From: Chloroflexales bacterium ZM16-3
GTDB lineage: Bacteria > Chloroflexota > Chloroflexia > Chloroflexales > Chloroflexaceae
Assembly: GCA_004138175.2 (NCBI GenBank)
Contig: RYFE02000040.1
Span: 1-44,679 of the forward strand
Direction of reading: 5' to 3'
DNA length: 44,679 nucleotides
Shown in pieces: positions 11,917 to 44,679 of this stretch. The notes beneath the pieces are model-generated. The model made no database searches. It was not told the origin of the DNA and was given only the letters and a program-made list of their open reading frames with translations. Position 1 is the first letter of the stretch, and every line of letters begins with the position of its first letter. The translations under genes and the position numbers were made by a program.

Positions 11917-12045
11917 GAGTCGGGAGTCGGGAGTCGGGAGTCGGGAGTCGGGAGTCGGGAGTCGGGAGTCGGGAGTCGGGAGTCAGGAGTCGGGAGTCGG
12001 GAGTCGGGGCGGCCCTGACTCCTGACTCCCGACTCCTGACTCCTG
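11917..12045. repeat. Heptamer array: 13 GAGTCGG units plus inverted units
   Basis: Thirteen contiguous 7-bp units of GAGTCGG (11917-12007, one variant GAGTCAG) are followed by four to five reverse-complement units (CCTGACT/CCCGACT, 12014-12045). The two parts can pair. The array fills much of the 435-base gap between the peptide unit and htpG; the rest of the gap holds the repeat at 12136 and a possible -10 TACAAT at 12106-12111. Confidence 0.9.
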
Positions 12046-12135
12046 AGGCCCTCTAACAGAGATTTTGCGCGGCGCTAACGTTGCTCTAACATTCATCATC
12101 TATCGTACAATGGAATAAGCTGTGCCTATCTCTGG

Positions 12136-12238: not shown

Positions 12239-14131
12239 ATGACAATCGATCAGGAGACGACGCACCAGCCGGAGGCGATGAGCTTCCGCGCCGAGGTGCA
12301 GCAGGTGCTGAACATTCTGGCCCACTCGCTGTATACCGACCGTGAGATATTTCTACGCGAGCTGATCTCGAACGCCTCGGATGCGCTGAACCGGCTGCAG
12401 TTTGAGATGCTGACGAATCAGGATGTGCGCGATGCCGACGCCGAGCTGGCGATCTGGGTGGAGGTCGATAAGGATGCCCGCACGATCACCGTGCGCGACA
12501 CGGGCACCGGCCTGACCCGCCAGGAGATGATCGACCACCTGGGCACGATCGCCCAGTCGAGCGCGCGGGCGTTTGTCCAGCAGGCGAAGGCCCAGAACGC
12601 AAACTCTAGCGAGATTATTGGCCAGTTTGGCGTGGGCTTCTACTCGGTGTTTATGGTCGCCGATAAGATCACGGTGACATCGCGCTCCTTCCAGCCCGAC
12701 GCCGAGGCGGCGGTCTGGGAGTCGACCGGCGGCGACAGCTTCACGGTGGATGTGGCCGAGCGCGAGGGGCGCGGCACGAGCATCACGCTGCACCTGAAGG
12801 AGGACGCGGCCGAGTTCGCTAACGACTGGAAGCTTGAGCAGATCATCAAGCGCCACTCGGACTTTGTCTCGTTCCCGATCTATATGGGCGATCGCCAGGT
12901 GAACCAGCAGAAGGCGCTCTGGCGGCGCGCCCCGCGCGAGGTGGAGGCCGAGCAGTACAAGAGCCTCTACCAGCAGATGACGATGGACTATGATGAGCCG
13001 CTGCTGAAGCTGCACCTCTCCACCGACGCGCCGATCGACCTGCACAGCATCCTGTTTGTGCCGGCCAAGCGCGAGCGCGGGATCATCGAGCGGCGCGTCG
13101 AGGGCAAGATCAAGCTCTACTCGCGCAAGGTGCTCATCCAGGAGGACGCGAAGGAGCTGCTGCCGAACTACTTCCGCTTTGTGGAGGGCGTGGTCGATAG
13201 CGAGGATCTGCCGCTGAATGTCTCGCGCGAGGGCGTGCAGAGCAATGTGGGCGCGAACATCGCGTCGCCCATCCAGCAGCGGATCAAGAAGACGCTGACC
13301 GGCAGGCTGCACCGCGAGCTGAATGATTTGGCGGAGAAAGACCCGGAGAAGTTCGCGGCCTTCTGGACGGAGTTTGGCGTCTTCATCAAGGAGGGCGTGG
13401 CGACCGACTTTGAGGGCCGCGACGACCTGCTGAAGCTGCTGCGCTTCAACAGCACGACGAGCGGCGAGGCGCTGATCACGCTGGCCGACTATAAGGGCCG
13501 GATCGTCGAGGGGCAGACCGAGATCTACTATGTGATGGGCGGCAGCCTGGAGGCGGCGCGCACTAGCCCGCACCTCGACCCGTTCACGGCGCGGGGGATC
13601 GAGGTGCTGCTCTTCGGCGAGCTGATGGATGGCTTTATGCTCTCGGGGCTGCGCGAGTTCGAGGGGATGAAGCTGCGGAATGTGGATGAGGCGGACATTG
13701 AGCTGCCGGGCGAGGTTGACGCGCCCGAGGGCAGCCTGAGCGACGAGGAGTTCGCCCAGCTGGCCGGGAGCTTCGCGGCGGCGCTGGGCGAGGAGGTGAA
13801 GGAGATCCGGGCATCGAAGGTGCTGCGCGATAGCCCGGCGCGGCTGGTGAGCGATGACGACGGCCCCGGCCGCGAGATGCAGCGTATCCAGCAGATGCTC
13901 GGGCGCGAGAGCGAGCCGCTGCCCCGCGTGCTGGAGCTGAACCCCTCGCACCCGCTGATCACATCGCTGGCCCGCCGGGCTGCGGCTGACCAGGCTGACC
14001 CGATCATTGCGGCGGTGGCCGAGCAGCTCTACGATAACGCGCTGCTGCTGGAGGGCCTGCACCAGAACCCGGCCACGATGGTGCCGCGTATCCAGCGGCT
14101 GCTTGAGGCGGCGGCGAGCATGGGTAAGTAG
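12239..14131 (+). CDS. htpG: HtpG, bacterial Hsp90 chaperone
   Basis: This ATP-driven dimeric cytosolic chaperone acts on late folding intermediates. The 630 residues are full length. The N-terminal GHKL ATPase shows FLRELISNASDALNRLQ (with the catalytic Glu and metal-binding Asn), DTGTGLTRQEM and the lid segment GQFGVGFYSVFMVAD. The middle domain contains ILFVPAKRERG and the conserved DSEDLPLNVSRE with the catalytic-loop Arg. The C-terminal part supports dimerisation, and the eukaryotic MEEVD tail is absent as in other bacteria. AAAAGGAG lies 9 bases before the ATG. Confidence 0.97.
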   Translation: MTIDQETTHQPEAMSFRAEVQQVLNILAHSLYTDREIFLRELISNASDALNRLQFEMLTNQDVRDADAELAIWVEVDKDARTITVRDTGTGLTRQEMIDHLGTIAQSSARAFVQQAKAQNANSSEIIGQFGVGFYSVFMVADKITVTSRSFQPDAEAAVWESTGGDSFTVDVAEREGRGTSITLHLKEDAAEFANDWKLEQIIKRHSDFVSFPIYMGDRQVNQQKALWRRAPREVEAEQYKSLYQQMTMDYDEPLLKLHLSTDAPIDLHSILFVPAKRERGIIERRVEGKIKLYSRKVLIQEDAKELLPNYFRFVEGVVDSEDLPLNVSREGVQSNVGANIASPIQQRIKKTLTGRLHRELNDLAEKDPEKFAAFWTEFGVFIKEGVATDFEGRDDLLKLLRFNSTTSGEALITLADYKGRIVEGQTEIYYVMGGSLEAARTSPHLDPFTARGIEVLLFGELMDGFMLSGLREFEGMKLRNVDEADIELPGEVDAPEGSLSDEEFAQLAGSFAAALGEEVKEIRASKVLRDSPARLVSDDDGPGREMQRIQQMLGRESEPLPRVLELNPSHPLITSLARRAAADQADPIIAAVAEQLYDNALLLEGLHQNPATMVPRIQRLLEAAASMGK

Positions 14132-16701: not shown

Positions 16702-17244
16702 CTACAGTGTGTAGACCTCGGGCTTGAGCACGCCGATGTATGGCAGGTTACGGTAGCGCTCGGCGTAGTCGAGGCCGTAGCCCACCACAAACTCGTTGGG
16801 GATATCGAAGCCCAGGTACTCCACGGGCACATCGGCGGTGCGGCGCTCGGGCTTGTTGAGCAGGGTGCAGATGCGCAGGCTGGCTGGGCCGCGCCCGAGC
16901 AGCTGGCTGCGCAGGTAGGCCAGGGTCAGTCCGCTGTCGATAATATCCTCGACGATCAGCACGTTTCGCCCGGCCAGATCGACATCGAGGTCCTTGAGCA
17001 TGCGCACCACGCCGCTCGACTCGGTGCTCTCGCCGTAGCTGGCGACGGCGATAAAGTCGAAGGAGAGCGGGATGTCGATGTTCCGCACCAGGTCCATCAT
17101 AAACATGGCGCAGCCCTTGAGCACGCCCACCAGCAGCAGGTTGTCCGCATCCCGATAGTCGGCGGCGATCTGCTCGCCTATCTCGCGCACCCGCGCCTGG
17201 ATCTGCCCCTCGTCGATCAGCACCTTGGCGATATCAGCGTGCAT
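16702..17244 (-). CDS. hpt: Hypoxanthine(-guanine) phosphoribosyltransferase
   Basis: This purine salvage enzyme joins hypoxanthine or guanine to PRPP. Its 180 residues match the family. The PRPP-binding motif is [14 protein letters not shown] (two acidic residues then DSG-T). The early [17 protein letters not shown] holds the pyrophosphate-binding loop, and [10 protein letters not shown] is the flexible loop with its conserved Ser-Tyr. The C-terminal [18 protein letters not shown] is typical. It overlaps the tilS end by 11 bases; the tilS-hpt pairing is common in bacteria. Confidence 0.95.
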
Positions 17245-18739
17245 CGTGTGGCTGCTCCTCTTCTGTCTCTCTTACGATACCTATCCAGATCACGCCCTCG
17301 CCCGCCCCCGCGACGGCCCGCTCATCGGCGCGCAGCCCGGCCACCCAGAGGATGGTCTCGCCGACGACGAGGATGGGCCATGCGTCGCGCAGGTGCTGGG
17401 GCACCTTCCTATCTACGAAGAAGTCCTGGAGCCGCCGTCCGCCGCGCCCGCCTGCGGGGCGGAAGCGGTCGCCGGGGCGGCGGCGGCGCAGGGACAGGCC
17501 AGCGCTCACCTCGGCGGGGATGGCGACCCACCAGGGCGAGGGCTGGGTCGGCGGCTCGGGCGTGGCCAGGCACTCCCACCCGTCGCCGATCGGCGTGCGG
17601 CCGGGCGCGGCGATGGCTAGGCGCTCGACGCTGAGCTGGGGCGCGTCCGGGCCGGGCGGCGCCCCGGCGACCCTGATGAGAGCGCTATTGTAGCCGAACT
17701 CCAGCAGCAGCCCGTGGGCGACCTCCGTGCGGCGCGGCTGCCCGGCGTCGATGGCGGCGCGGGCCGCCTCGACCTGGGGGAAGCTCAGCTCGGGCGCGCC
17801 GAGGCGGGCGGCGGCCCGGCGCAGGGCGTAGCGGCGCAGGGCGGGGTGAAGATCGCGCCATGCCGCCAGATCCAGCTCGATGCTGCCGGGCCGCTCGGCG
17901 GCCAGGGAGGGCCATGCCGCGTCAAGCGACCGCTGCATAAAGTCATAGTCGTCGCCGCAGATCTGCGCGGTGCGCCCGAGGGCCGCGACAACCTGGGGGT
18001 TGTGCTCGGCGAGGGCGGGCAGCAGGCGGTGGCGCACCCGGCTGCGGGCGTAGCGCGGCGATCGGTTCGAGGGGTCGTCCGCCGGACTCAGGCCATGCCG
18101 CGCGCAGTAGTCCAGCACCTCGGCGCGGGAGGTTTCGAGCAGGGGTCTGATCAGCAATGTTGAATGTTGAATGTTGAATGTTGAATGTCGAGCATTGTCC
18201 TCCGCATTCAACATTCTCAATTCAACATTCAACATTCCGGTCGCCCACTCACCCCAGCCAACCACGGGGCGCATGCCGCGCAGGCCGGCGGGGCCGGCGC
18301 CGCGCAGGGCGTGCAGCAGCACCGTCTCGGCCTGGTCGTCGGCGGTGTGGGCCACCGCCACGGCGTGGGCGCCTGTGTCGCGGGCGGCCTGGGCCAGGAA
18401 GGTGTAGCGGGCGCGGCGGGCCGCCGCCTGTGAGCCCTCGCCGGACGAGCGGGCCAGGGCGGGAACATCGACGTGGGCAAGGGTGACGGGGACGCCCCAT
18501 GCGGCGGCGACCTCGGCCACCGTGCGGGCCTCGGCGGCCGACTGCTCGCCGCGAAAGCCGTGGTCGAGGTGGGCGACGTGTAGCTGCGGGCCTCCGTCGC
18601 GGGAGAGGGCGGCCAGGGCGTGCAGCAGGCAGAGCGAGTCTGGGCCGCCGGAGACAGCGACGAGGATCAGGGCGTCGGGGCCACGCAGCCCCCGCGCGGA
18701 TAGGAAGCCGCCCACCCGGTTGGTCAGCGCATCGTGCAT
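17234..18739 (-). CDS. tilS: TilS, tRNA(Ile)-lysidine synthase, with repeat-derived insert
   Basis: TilS attaches lysine to C34 of the CAU-anticodon isoleucine tRNA so that it reads AUA. The 501 residues have the PP-loop SGGPDS (30-35), [28 protein letters not shown], and C-terminal TilS domains with [27 protein letters not shown]. Residues about 168-195, between [11 protein letters not shown] and [10 protein letters not shown], have no place in the family alignment I know and are encoded by a palindromic heptamer repeat (18156-18240). The frame stays open through it. An upstream extension is only translated repeat, so ATG 18739 (MHDALTN) is chosen. The end overlaps hpt by 11 bases. Confidence 0.92.
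18156..18240. repeat. Palindromic heptamer array inside the tilS coding sequence
   Basis: Forward 7-mers TTGAATG (18158-18187) are followed by inverted units of ATTCAAC type (18205-18236). The whole array of about 84 bases is a multiple of three and is read through in tilS, giving short repeated peptides such as MLNVE, RMLNAE and STFNIQHST. Confidence 0.9.
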
Positions 18740-18747
18740 AGCAAAAA

Positions 18748-18814
18748 GTGTTGAGTGCTGGGTGTTGAGCGTTGAGTTGGTATAACTCAACACTCAACAC
18801 CCAGCACCCAACAC
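18748..18814. repeat. 31-bp inverted heptamer repeat between tRNA and tilS
   Basis: Arms 18748-18778 and 18784-18814 match at 29 of 31 positions as inverted repeats of 7-mers (GTTGAGT, GCTGGGT and relatives) with loop GGTAT. It lies in the 82-base gap between the tRNA 3' end and the tilS start and could form a processing or termination hairpin. Confidence 0.85.
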
Positions 18815-18821
18815 TCGCGTC

Positions 18822-18896
18822 TGGTGCCGAAGGCGGGATTCGAACCCGCGACCTAACGATTATGAGCCGTTTGCTCTACCGCTGAGCTACCTCGGC
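18822..18896 (-). tRNA. tRNA with CAT anticodon (elongator Met, or Ile2 modified by TilS)
   Basis: A complete cloverleaf can be read on the minus strand. The acceptor pairs are GCCGAGG with CTTCGGC, followed by A and an encoded CCA. The D arm is GCTC-AGCGGTA-GAGC, the anticodon arm AACGG-CTCATAA-TCGTT, and the T arm GCGGG-TTCGAAT-CCCGC. It is 72 bases plus CCA. The anticodon is CAT. The acceptor 1-72 pair is G-C and there are no three G-C pairs at the base of the anticodon stem, so it is not the initiator. Elongator Met and the AUA-reading Ile2 cannot be separated by eye. It is co-oriented with tilS, whose substrate is Ile2. Confidence 0.93.
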
Positions 18897-31836: not shown

Positions 31837-31864
31837 CTGAATGCTGAATGCTGAATGCTGAATA
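31837..31864. repeat. Four tandem CTGAATG heptamers
   Basis: Four direct 7-bp units lie in the short gap between two divergent genes, beginning 8 bases from the GNAT start and ending 5 bases before the start of the nucleotidyltransferase gene. Unlike most other arrays it has no inverted half. Confidence 0.85.
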
Positions 31865-31868
31865 GGAT

Positions 31869-33392
31869 ATGACAACTTCCAACCTTGATCAAACCCTGCG
31901 CGAGCTTGCGGCCTTCTGCGCGAGCAGGGGGGTAAGCGCATGGCTTATCGGCGGCGCGGCCCGCGACATCGCCCGTGGCGTCGCCCCGGTCGACCTTGAT
32001 CTGGCAGTGGACGGCGACGGCATCGAGCTGGCCCGCGCTATAGCTGATCGACTCGGCGGAACCTTTGTGCCGCTCGATGGCGAGCATAGCACTGGGCGAG
32101 CGGTGATCCCGGCCCGCGTTGATGCCCCGGCCCTGGTCATCGATGTGGCCCGCCTGCGCGCCCCCACCATCGAGGGCGACCTACGCCTGCGCGACTTCAC
32201 CGTCAACGCCCTGGCCATCCCGCTAGATGATCCTTGGCCCGACTCCCGACTCCTGATGCCCGACTCGTTCATTGACCCGACTGGCGGGCTGGCCGACCTG
32301 CGGGCGGGGGTGCTGCGGGCCGGCGGGCCGACGAGCATGGCCGATGACCCGCTGCGCACGCTGCGGGCGGCCCGGCTGGGCGCTGCCCTGGGCCTGCGGG
32401 CCGCACCTGAGCTTGCGGGGCAGATCCGCGCCGCCGCCCCCGGGCTCAGCCGGGTCGCTGGCGAGCGGCTGCGCGATGAGCTGCTCAAGCTGCTCGATAG
32501 CCCGGCCAGCGCGCTGTGGCTGCGCTACCTCGACACCTGCGGCGCACTGACCATCGTGCTGCCTGAGCTTGAGCCCGCCAGGGCCTGCGATCAGCCGAAG
32601 ATCCACTTCCTGCCCGTGCTGGCGCACATGCTGGAGACGGTGGCCAGCCTGGAGTGGGTGCTGCGCGGCCTCGGTGACGCCTGGGCTGCGGATGATGCGC
32701 CCGAGGAGTTGCCGGTGGCGGTGCGGGCCAACCCCGGCCTGCCGCGTGATCTGCCCTACGCCGAGCGCTACGCCGCGCTGATGGGCGAGCATCGTGGCGG
32801 CGGGCGGCGGCGGGCGGCCATGCTCAAGCTGGCCGTGCTCATCCACGACAACGCTAAGCCGCAGACGAAGCAGGTTCACGCCGACGGCAAGGTCAGCTTC
32901 TACGGGCACCAGGAGATCGGCGCGGATGTGGCGACAGAGATCTGTCGGCGCCTGCGTATGAGCCGCCAGGACACAAGCTATGTCACGCTGGTGGTGCGCG
33001 AGCACATGCGGCCGGGGCAGCTGAGGACTGGTGAGGTCGTCACCGCGCGGGCGGTGGCGCGCTTCTTCCGCGACCTGGGCGACGCCGGGCCAGATGTGCT
33101 GCTGCACGAGTTGGCCGACCACATGGCAACCAGGGGGCCACATCTGCGGCCGGATCATTGGCAGGCGCACATGGCCTGGGTCGGCGCGATGCTCGACGCC
33201 CACTGGGGTTTGCCGGAGGAGCGGCGCGCGCCGCTGCTGCGGGGCACCGACCTGATGGATGTGCTGGGGCTGCCGCCCGGCCCCCACATCGGCGCGCTGC
33301 TGCGCGCCATCGCCGAGGCCCAGGCCGCCGGGGAGATCGCCAGCCGCGAGGAGGCTATCGAGTTGGCTCGGGGGATGCGGGAGGGCTCGTGA
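31869..33392 (+). CDS. HD-domain tRNA nucleotidyltransferase (CCA-adding type)
   Basis: Class II nucleotidyltransferase that builds or repairs tRNA 3' CCA ends. The 507 residues show the head motif AWLIGGAARD (27-33), VDLDLAV with the metal Asp pair (42, 44), ERxR-like LRLRDFTVNALAI, GLADLRAGVLR and LRTLRAARLGA. An HD phosphohydrolase domain follows (HFLPVLAHMLETV, LAVLIHDNAKP, GHQEIGADVA). Residues about 122-134 (WPDSRLLMPDSF) between AIPLD and IDPTGG are encoded by heptamer repeats. The adjacent tRNA already encodes CCA, so repair is likely; A-adding or CC-adding specificity cannot be decided. Confidence 0.9.
   Translation: MTTSNLDQTLRELAAFCASRGVSAWLIGGAARDIARGVAPVDLDLAVDGDGIELARAIADRLGGTFVPLDGEHSTGRAVIPARVDAPALVIDVARLRAPTIEGDLRLRDFTVNALAIPLDDPWPDSRLLMPDSFIDPTGGLADLRAGVLRAGGPTSMADDPLRTLRAARLGAALGLRAAPELAGQIRAAAPGLSRVAGERLRDELLKLLDSPASALWLRYLDTCGALTIVLPELEPARACDQPKIHFLPVLAHMLETVASLEWVLRGLGDAWAADDAPEELPVAVRANPGLPRDLPYAERYAALMGEHRGGGRRRAAMLKLAVLIHDNAKPQTKQVHADGKVSFYGHQEIGADVATEICRRLRMSRQDTSYVTLVVREHMRPGQLRTGEVVTARAVARFFRDLGDAGPDVLLHELADHMATRGPHLRPDHWQAHMAWVGAMLDAHWGLPEERRAPLLRGTDLMDVLGLPPGPHIGALLRAIAEAQAAGEIASREEAIELARGMREGS
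32238..32267. repeat. Heptamer units (CCGACTC type) inside the nucleotidyltransferase gene
   Basis: The units CCCGACT, CCCGACT, CCTGATG and CCCGACT follow each other in frame within the coding sequence. They are the same 7-mer as the intergenic arrays at 11917, 36777 and 44544. Confidence 0.75.
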
Positions 33393-36774: not shown

Positions 36775-36776
36775 CC

Positions 36777-36921
36777 AGGAGTCGGGGGTCAGGAGTCGGG
36801 AGTCGGGCTCAAGCGCCCGGCGCTCAAGTGATAAGGGGCCGTGGCATTCGCCACGGCCCCTTTCCTTATGCTATACACCGACTCCCGACTCCCGACTCCC
36901 GACTCCTGACCCCCGACCCCC
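36777..36921. repeat. Palindromic GAGTCGG heptamer array around a terminator
   Basis: Forward units (GGAGTCG/GGGGTCA variants, 36777-36807) and inverted units (CCCGACT, 36879-36921) flank the terminator at 36833-36862. The array fills the space between the convergent dctP-type and dctM-type genes. Confidence 0.9.
36833..36862. terminator. Terminator between convergent TRAP genes
   Basis: AAGGGGCCGTGGC (36833-36845) pairs perfectly with 36850-36862 around ATTC, followed by TTTCCTT on the plus strand. Placement fits a bidirectional terminator. Confidence 0.75.
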
Positions 36922-38853: not shown

Positions 38854-38872
38854 GCGGCTACCTTCCTTTCTC

Positions 38873-38923
38873 AGGGAACAGGGGACAGGGGACAGGGGAC
38901 AGGGAACAGGGGACATAGGGGAC
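38873..38923. repeat. Tandem GGGGACA heptamer array
   Basis: About seven direct 7-bp units (GGGGACA and GGGAACA) lie just upstream of the small permease gene. Together with the repeat at 38988 and the palindrome at 39180 it fills the 382-base gap to pckG. Confidence 0.85.
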
Positions 38924-44543: not shown

Positions 44544-44679
44544 CAGGAGTCGGGGGTCGGGAGTCGGGAGTCAGGGGCCGCCCCCCGCCCCCCGCCCCCC
44601 GACTCCTGACTCCCGACTCCTGACTCTCGACTCCTGACTCCCGACTCCTGACTCCTGACTCCTGACTCCCGACTCCCGA
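44544..44679. repeat. Palindromic GAGTCGG heptamer array at the window end
   Basis: Forward units (GGAGTCG, GGGGTCG; 44544-44577), a C-rich spacer, then at least eleven inverted units (CCCGACT, CCTGACT, CTCGACT; about 44597 to the end). The array runs out of the window. It lies upstream of the NHL-lipoprotein gene; the gap from 44500 holds nothing else clear. Confidence 0.9.

Follow-up and report, generated by a model that had tools for sequence, protein, structure and literature searches.

Arrays of tandem 7-nt units, most of them laid out as two facing arms that can fold upon one another, are scattered through the Oscillochloris genome from which the DNA considered here derives, a stretch of 44,679 nucleotides hereafter called the window. 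The interpretation we favour, tentatively and with a probability of roughly 45%, is that these palindromic heptamer arrays are made and kept genome-wide by DNA copying, that is by slippage and hairpin-templated synthesis, and are not built for the adjacent gene. The kind of repeat is already known from cyanobacteria and Xanthomonas, and what is new, as far as these searches go, is the mirrored form with its many unit families, together with a preference for lengths of 7n+4 nt. A literature search returned nothing on tandem repeats of Oscillochloris or on heptanucleotide tandem repeats of Chloroflexi, and no Chloroflexota title stood among the heptamer-repeat matches listed.

Period-7 arrays in the window and across genomes

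The window is contig C63 of a 6.27 Mb genome (G000), and the genome-scale sample comprised 845 kb of G000, window included, and 800 kb of a sister genome (G002, 98% complete and very probably that of Oscillochloris sp. ZM17-4), approximately 1.64 Mb altogether. Among named relatives, a protein of the window is closest to Oscillochloris sp. ZM17-4, in a search from which records of the window's own genome may be absent. Arrays were called with Tandem Repeats Finder (TRF), with a score of at least 40 for period counts, and certain unit families go by two names (AATCTGC is ATTGCAG, ACTCCCG is GAGTCGG and AACATTC is TTGAATG).

Both TRF and reading of the sequences place period-7 arrays at all ten of the window sites for which the original prediction had listed 7-bp units. 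Its description of most arrays as forward units, a spacer and reverse-complement units also holds, as seven of the ten (165, 11917, 18156, 18748, 24434, 36777 and 44544) have an inverted partner, the single arms being those at 31837, 32238 and 38873. In total the window carries 17 period-7 arms and 7 palindromes, compared with a mean of 0.57 arms (maximum 3) and no palindromes in 100 Markov-1 versions of it. The loci and the genes about them are as follows, with strand given where one is assigned.

166-232: ATTGCAG-family palindrome; purine-rich arm 166-182, loop, pyrimidine-rich arm 204-232; RNA fold z -3.4
245-2557: CheA-like gene with CheW, Hpt, HATPase and response-regulator domains, directly downstream of the palindrome at 166-232
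11917-12046: GAGTCGG-family palindrome; 13-copy arm 11917-12008, 5-nt spacer, inverted arm 12014-12046; RNA fold z -6.5
12239-14131: Hsp90-like gene (Hsp90 domain match), starting about 190 bp past the palindrome at 11917-12046
17234-18739, minus strand: tilS, whose frame reads without a stop through the palindrome at 18156-18237
18156-18237: AATGTTG-family palindrome in the tilS frame; arms 18156-18188 and 18205-18237; RNA fold z -9.9
18747-18816: AGTGTTG-family palindrome between tilS and the tRNA gene; RNA fold z -10.7
18825-18896, minus strand: tRNA gene; Rfam gives no other match in the window that reaches its gathering score
24434-24497: ATTGCAG-family palindrome between convergent CAP-domain and indole-3-glycerol-phosphate synthase genes; RNA fold z -9.9
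31837-31863, plus strand: single CTGAATG array directly upstream of the CCA-adding enzyme gene (31869-33392)
32238-32266, plus strand: degenerate CCCGACT array, a single arm within the CCA-adding enzyme frame (PolyA_pol family)
36776-36807 and 36878-36921: GGAGTCG-family arms between convergent DctP and DctM genes; RNA fold z -11.3
38872-38915, plus strand: single CAGGGGA array at the 5' end of the DctQ gene, within the gene if an earlier start codon is used
44546-44676: GGAGTCG-family locus; arm 44546-44572, short CCGCCCC array 44578-44601, long inverted arm 44598-44676

The predominance of period 7 extends well beyond these loci. At a TRF score of at least 40, periods 6, 7 and 8 are represented by 5, 183 and 17 arrays in the 845 kb of G000 and by 10, 204 and 11 in the 800 kb of G002, the array densities being 217 and 255 per Mb, and exact-run counts over the first 400 kb gave 90 period-7 arrays against none in a shuffled copy. 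The constancy of the unit length that had been predicted is thus a property of both genome samples. The accompanying idea that each locus has a 7-mer of its own was mistaken, as a few unit families instead recur across the whole genome: 126 arrays in 445 kb fall into 28 unit classes, with ACTCCCG (30) and AATCTGC (29) at the top, and the leading families are AATCTGC, ACTCCCG, AACATTC, AACCCCC and ACAGGGG. With up to two mismatches allowed, (GAGTCGG)3 has 837 overlapping matches in the whole of G000, compared with 65 for the same pattern read backwards. The palindromes of one population comprise 41 unit classes. A mutation hot spot at the fifth base of the unit was also considered and set aside, since the flip P of 0.0024 arises only where two families dominate, that for cyanobacteria is 0.13, and the pipeline inflates positions 5-7.

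Across genomes the arrays are sporadic. Within the genus they occur in stretches of G000, G002, G003, G004 and G005, with G002 having the most matches to both palindrome patterns searched; 83 kb of G001 contained no period-7 array, and a search of its genome returned neither palindrome pattern. Fifteen other Chloroflexales loci (L083-L097) were without a period-7 array at TRF score 40 (the one palindrome noted in a Chloroflexi MAG, L084, is GC-rich and does not look heptameric), and ATTGCAG palindromes were found in 11 of 158 genomes of the class, representing 6 of 78 genera. At the same TRF score many period-7 arrays are present in loci of Okeania, Symploca, Prochloron and one Spirulina, and the unit classes common to Oscillochloris and cyanobacteria number 4 against 2.4 expected, which is not significant. 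With array-rich species and one in which no array was seen, Oscillochloris is a natural place to seek the responsible gene.

Several further repeats were seen in the course of this survey. An identical 44-nt palindrome, loop included, occurs in two genera (G003:C219:2576-2619 and G008:C93:520-563), through either horizontal transfer or contamination. Period-8 arrays are also raised in Okeania (23 in 260 kb, L274-L286). Two dispersed repeats of about 118 bp (L035:868-985 and L035:16302-16419) have many copies across G002, and since they match on both strands they are probably small palindromic elements.

Mirrored architecture, polarity and length

The inverted arrangement is the rule in these genomes. 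An inverted partner lies within 130 bp of 279 of the 455 arms in the G000 and G002 samples, against a mean of 22 when flanks were swapped between arms, which bears out the predicted excess of inverted pairing; a direct partner lies within the same distance of 9. Independently called arms no more than 100 bp apart were inverted with the purine-rich arm first in 116 cases, inverted with the pyrimidine-rich arm first in 3, direct in 1 and unrelated in 14, while 86% of random arm pairs are unrelated. The purine-rich arm comes first, exclusively, in 38 of the 41 unit classes (157 palindromes). Whole-genome pattern searches agree: of 41 genomes searched in the taxonomic family, the 4 with head-to-head AATGTTG pairs all belong to Oscillochloris (G000 has 82 overlapping matches, G002 172), and tail-to-tail AATGTTG pairs numbered zero in the six genomes of the genus. 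This polarity is not specific to heptamers, since ordinary perfect hairpins without heptamers in G000 and G002 are for the most part purine-first as well (181 versus 47); it is better regarded as a trait of hairpins here that reaches its extreme in the heptamer arrays. Random coding segments show no such polarity in their best short stems (34/31 and 61/61, ties apart).

Loops range from 2 to over 90 nt and, on reading, are mostly unique to their locus. In the four largest families an arm resembles its own partner scarcely more than it resembles arms of other loci (the probability of a better match to its own being 0.51 to 0.68), which counts against recent copying from arm to arm in those families; variants matched by position between the two arms are visible by eye in small families and weak or absent in large ones. 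Perfect hairpins without heptamers (stem of at least 14 bp) are themselves abundant, at 14-17 per 100 kb in samples of G000 and G002 (L031-L050, L168-L187 and L208-L247) and 0.2 in Okeania and Symploca, and some of them begin GTAAGGGCGC.

Lengths of 7n+3 to 7n+5 nt are preferred, the commonest being about 32 nt, or roughly four and a half units. In G002 there are 25, 41 and 27 arrays of 31, 32 and 33 nt, compared with 4, 2 and 2 of 28, 29 and 35 nt, and simulated arrays of uniform length distribution come out roughly flat. The modulo-7 chi-square is significant for G002 (p 1.6e-11), G000 (0.008) and Okeania (1.4e-4), and not for Symploca (0.08) or the mixed cyanobacterial loci (0.71). When each family has one vote (arrays of 20-48 nt), the excess is found in four of five sets, with P of 0.005 for G002, 0.025 for G000, below 0.0003 for Okeania and 0.02 for the mixed cyanobacterial loci, and 0.18 for Symploca; G000 has a second excess at 7n+6. 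The suggestion that some mechanism measures length is largely borne out by the fixed period of 7 and by 7n+4 lengths with a mode of about 32; Symploca does not show the length rule.

Starting phases are likewise shared. Although one palindrome can count in two similar families in this tally, the commonest phase accounts for 14 of 17 left arms in AGGGGAC and 17 of 36 in AATGTTG, while 33 of 40 ATTGCAG arms start at two adjacent phases, and the rule is weak in GGAGTCG (5/19) and GGGGTTG (5/14). As several families keep the same outer phase between loci, arrays tend to start and end on the same tetranucleotide, as in AATG-TTG-AATG.

Inheritance and change between sister species

G000 and G002 are collinear across 224 kb of one contig, and inheritance in place accounts for part of the arrays. 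Both species carry arrays at 17 of 121 orthologous intergenic regions, G000 alone at 17, G002 alone at 14 and neither at 73 (odds ratio 5.2, p 3e-4), and in 12 of the 17 shared regions the best arm-pair similarity is at a level met by 7% of random arm pairs. Some orthologous regions bear different unit families in the two species. Switching of the unit at a fixed site was nonetheless rejected as an explanation, as dissimilar arms in 5 of the 121 regions compare with about 3.8 expected from independent gain (22 x 19 / 109); the boundaries that appear exact at such sites are those of gene ends and reflect coding constraint.

Of 197 arms tried, 113 could not be mapped, and the 84 that could comprised 25 of the same length, 5 differing by a multiple of 7 and 54 differing otherwise. 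After removal of 59 arms of other length and 5 that were too dissimilar, 20 orthologous arms of equal length remained. These have 61 substitutions, of which 29 repeat an identical change at one phase in at least two units. This is a modest excess over 500 shuffles (mean 17.9, maximum 29). Individual cases are instructive: in the tilS palindrome, TTGAATG has become TGGAATG in all four units of one arm in G002 at unchanged length, and at the array within the CCA-adding enzyme gene (32238-32266) ZM17-4 has GCCTCCT units without an indel. A gain or loss of 7 nt would shift the frame of either gene, both of which we take to be of an essential type, so that conversion-like copying, as opposed to stepwise slippage, probably operated there. 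The counterpart of the array at 31837-31863 in the named ZM17-4 record reads CTGAATG(TTGAATG)n and is of equal length.

No insertion of a whole array was caught. Nine of 161 anchored clusters (77 in G000 and 84 in G002) have a clearly shorter counterpart, and reading revealed no clean empty site among these nine; recent insertions within the repeated DNA of each genome were also not found. Palindromes without heptamers occupy places where the sister species has a heptamer palindrome. By eye, the GGAGTCG arms at 36776-36921 enclose an ordinary terminator-like hairpin (36833-36863), and at the equivalent place in ZM17-4 (L081) GGGGACA-type arms surround another hairpin, arms and hairpin both being different.

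Possible origins of the arrays

STRR heptamers, which occur in Calothrix and other cyanobacteria, share with the present arrays the period of 7, mixed unit families and many arrays of 32-33 nt. They differ in that few cyanobacterial arms have an inverted partner (10 of 125 arms from Okeania, 2 of 63 from Symploca and 11 of 161 from 78 other, mostly cyanobacterial, loci), as opposed to 279 of 455 in Oscillochloris. A heptamer excess in prokaryotes and its explanation through polymerase contacts are relayed in PMC4692102 and PMC4679880, both of which cite a 2007 survey bearing on why seven-base repeats dominate in some bacteria. Rehm et al. 2015 (PMC4692102) give 70 and 75 convergent GGGAATC pairs in two Xanthomonas genomes and few in Nostoc, so that the inverted architecture, which had been taken to suggest a distinct repeat-generating process, is not without precedent. 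Those GGGAATC and GGGGA(C/T)T repeats resemble the present ones in period, intergenic bias and preference for four units, and mostly occupy the same sites in two species with changes of length, comparable to the partial same-site sharing here; but that study deals with one G-rich unit type per genome, whereas Oscillochloris has 41 palindrome unit classes, many without G-runs, with a shared polarity and the 7n+4 preference. TAACTGA repeats of Beggiatoaceae, cyanobacteria and Bacteroidetes (MacGregor 2015, PMC4679880) also have a period of 7, are mostly intergenic and are sporadic between phyla, but in the main genome of that study 169 sets are direct and one inverted, mostly right before start codons, whereas inversion is the rule in Oscillochloris.

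The favoured reading, copying by slippage and on hairpin templates, can be set out in three steps. The 3' end of the purine-rich strand would slip back during repair or lagging-strand synthesis, re-anneal on about four bases and add seven; having the same tetranucleotide at both ends, the product A(BA)n, with A of about 4 nt and B of about 3, comes to 7n+4 nt. Within a hairpin the growing strand might then switch to its own complement, by which a mirrored copy would be made and refreshed, and such switching would yield both head-to-head pairs and concerted change of units without change of length; PMC8794818 describes template switching between hairpin arms as giving rise both to perfect stems and to biased base pairs. 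Finally, sequence is copied in trans between loci, as dozens of unrelated sites have identical units, which in several families also share their starting phase; slippage alone cannot place one 7-mer at dozens of loci, and our searches found no route for such copying. The enzymology and the route in trans are the parts of this model that we infer. Of the two mechanisms named in the original prediction, hairpin-templated slippage is still a good candidate, and for the other, an unknown enzyme, none was identified, the search for a dedicated repeat-adding activity having produced no candidate. The majority of copies are likely to be neutral, surviving wherever coding does not stand in their way. 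The 7n+4 lengths, the purine-first pairs and the concerted change make testable predictions regarding the length of the re-annealing segment and the strand that is made.

Selection might instead maintain the hairpins for their structure in RNA or DNA, for example as terminators or 3'-end protectors, with heptamers as a cheap source of long stems. The folds are indeed stable (RNA fold z -3.4 to -11.3 in six window cases), the arms are mostly intergenic (89 of 110 and 86 of 112, where home-made gene calls put intergenic DNA at 11%), and the orthologous site is often occupied by other hairpins, yet we consider this explanation unlikely. By gene calls from a simple home-made hexamer model, which make the counts approximate, arrays occur at 9/35 divergent, 35/119 co-directional and 8/30 convergent regions of G000 C1 and at 16/41, 29/141 and 5/34 of G002 C1, whereas other inverted repeats concentrate between convergent genes (8/35, 32/119 and 18/30 in G000 C1; 6/41, 50/141 and 18/34 in G002 C1). 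For want of such a concentration the arrays are not terminators as a class, despite their strong folds, and on these approximate counts we reject termination as their main function. Where unpaired arms lie between co-directional genes, neither strand is preferred (the purine-rich one is sense in 13 cases and antisense in 15; the 42/42 of palindrome arms is forced by symmetry and is uninformative), half of the G000 array regions are without an array in the sister, and selection on structure leaves the shared unit sequences unexplained. Position is not fully indifferent, since single arms are common between divergent genes (24 divergent, 28 co-directional and 4 convergent, in counts not scaled to region length). 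A related proposal, made for Xanthomonas and Nostoc, is that the arrays are G-quadruplex elements whose four units supply four G-tracts. Some families are suitably G-rich (GGGGACA, GGAGTCG and GGGGTTG), but ATTGCAG and AATGTTG, two of the largest, have no run of at least three G, and the families without such runs contradict G-quadruplexes as a general cause. The length preference moreover persists in units without GGG/CCC in three of five sets (p 1.7e-10 in G002, 0.003 in G000 and 0.001 in Okeania; not significant in Symploca, 0.26, or the mixed loci, 0.4). A preference that units show whether or not they contain G-runs is hard to ascribe to a need for four G-tracts, and we regard the proposal as hardly credible as a general explanation.

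A mobile origin has rather more in its favour, although on balance it appears doubtful: the palindromes would be miniature elements of the REPIN or MITE type, fixed-end hairpins copied in trans by a transposase. Preferred outer ends in several families, the palindromic form with dispersal to unrelated intergenic sites, and the spread of ATTGCAG palindromes over those 6 genera of the class would all accord with it, and REPINs, as described by Bertels and Rainey 2011 (PMC3116915), are similarly intergenic, dispersed inverted doublets with a spacer. Unlike them, the present stems consist of 7-nt repeats, with no fixed tag or conserved loop and no Y1 transposase in G002. Among 84 elements of four families, direct repeats in the flanks were as in shuffles bar one 8 bp case, arguing against target-site duplication, and 12 flanking positions on each side yielded neither a GTAG/CGTC tag nor a consensus. 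Loops mostly differ between loci of one family, without conserved internal sequence, the anchored clusters include no clean empty site, and 41 unit classes within one population are difficult to accommodate. The REP-type transposase that had been put forward as a shared protein is not supported, as PF01797 (Y1_Tnp, RAYT), the one transposase family searched, has no match in the array-rich G002 or in G003, and 5 in G000, so that arrays do not require a Y1 transposase; neither a REP transposase nor a reverse transcriptase (RT) tracks the arrays across genomes. An RT with a short A-B-A' RNA template, comparable to telomerase or DRT10, could also add 7-nt repeats to 3' ends at breaks, two such ends joined face to face giving a head-to-head palindrome. 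Addition as A(BA)n would give both 7n+4 lengths and shared terminal tetranucleotides, and heptamer pairs have the head-to-head polarity of fused telomeres. The available text of the DRT10 preprint (PMC12632851) describes the same A(BA)n logic, with a 4-nt A as re-annealing segment and a 5-nt B yielding 9-nt repeats, but the product is free cDNA serving phage defence, entry of that cDNA into the chromosome is without report in that text, and no DRT10 was recognised here. Against such an enzyme, G000 has one PF00078 match, whose UG17 score of 95.7 bits is below the 108.9 of an RT in G001, where arrays were not seen; with the UG17/DRT10 profile G000 gave a retroelement-like RT only and G003 nothing; G003 (94% complete, fragmented) has arrays but no RT match; and loops of 50-90 nt with local terminators are unlike end joining. 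We therefore think an RT of this kind very unlikely. A wider conjecture, and a long shot, is that an A-B-A' repeat-adding activity (about 4 nt of re-annealing, a 7-nt step, about four cycles, with the purine-rich strand made) left the heptamer arrays in the chromosomes of bacteria from at least two phyla, two 3' extensions meeting head-to-head in Oscillochloris; if so, both the period of 7 nt and the length of 32 nt would reflect a single enzyme or polymerase state and not the sequences.

Loss of the palindrome nuclease SbcCD was also considered and rejected, as SbcD is over its cut-off and a near-full-length SbcC is present in 21 of 21 genomes each, the curated SbcC cut-off being exceeded in 6 of the 21, all cyanobacteria. 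Two RT neighbourhoods were noted by eye. The RT of G000 (L294:5674-6852, contig C46), which from its neighbours we presume to be probably of the diversity-generating retroelement type, lies between two large genes with similar-looking C-terminal ends, and at L296 (G002 C26) an RT at 360-1811 is directly followed by a cas1-like gene at 1815-2810.
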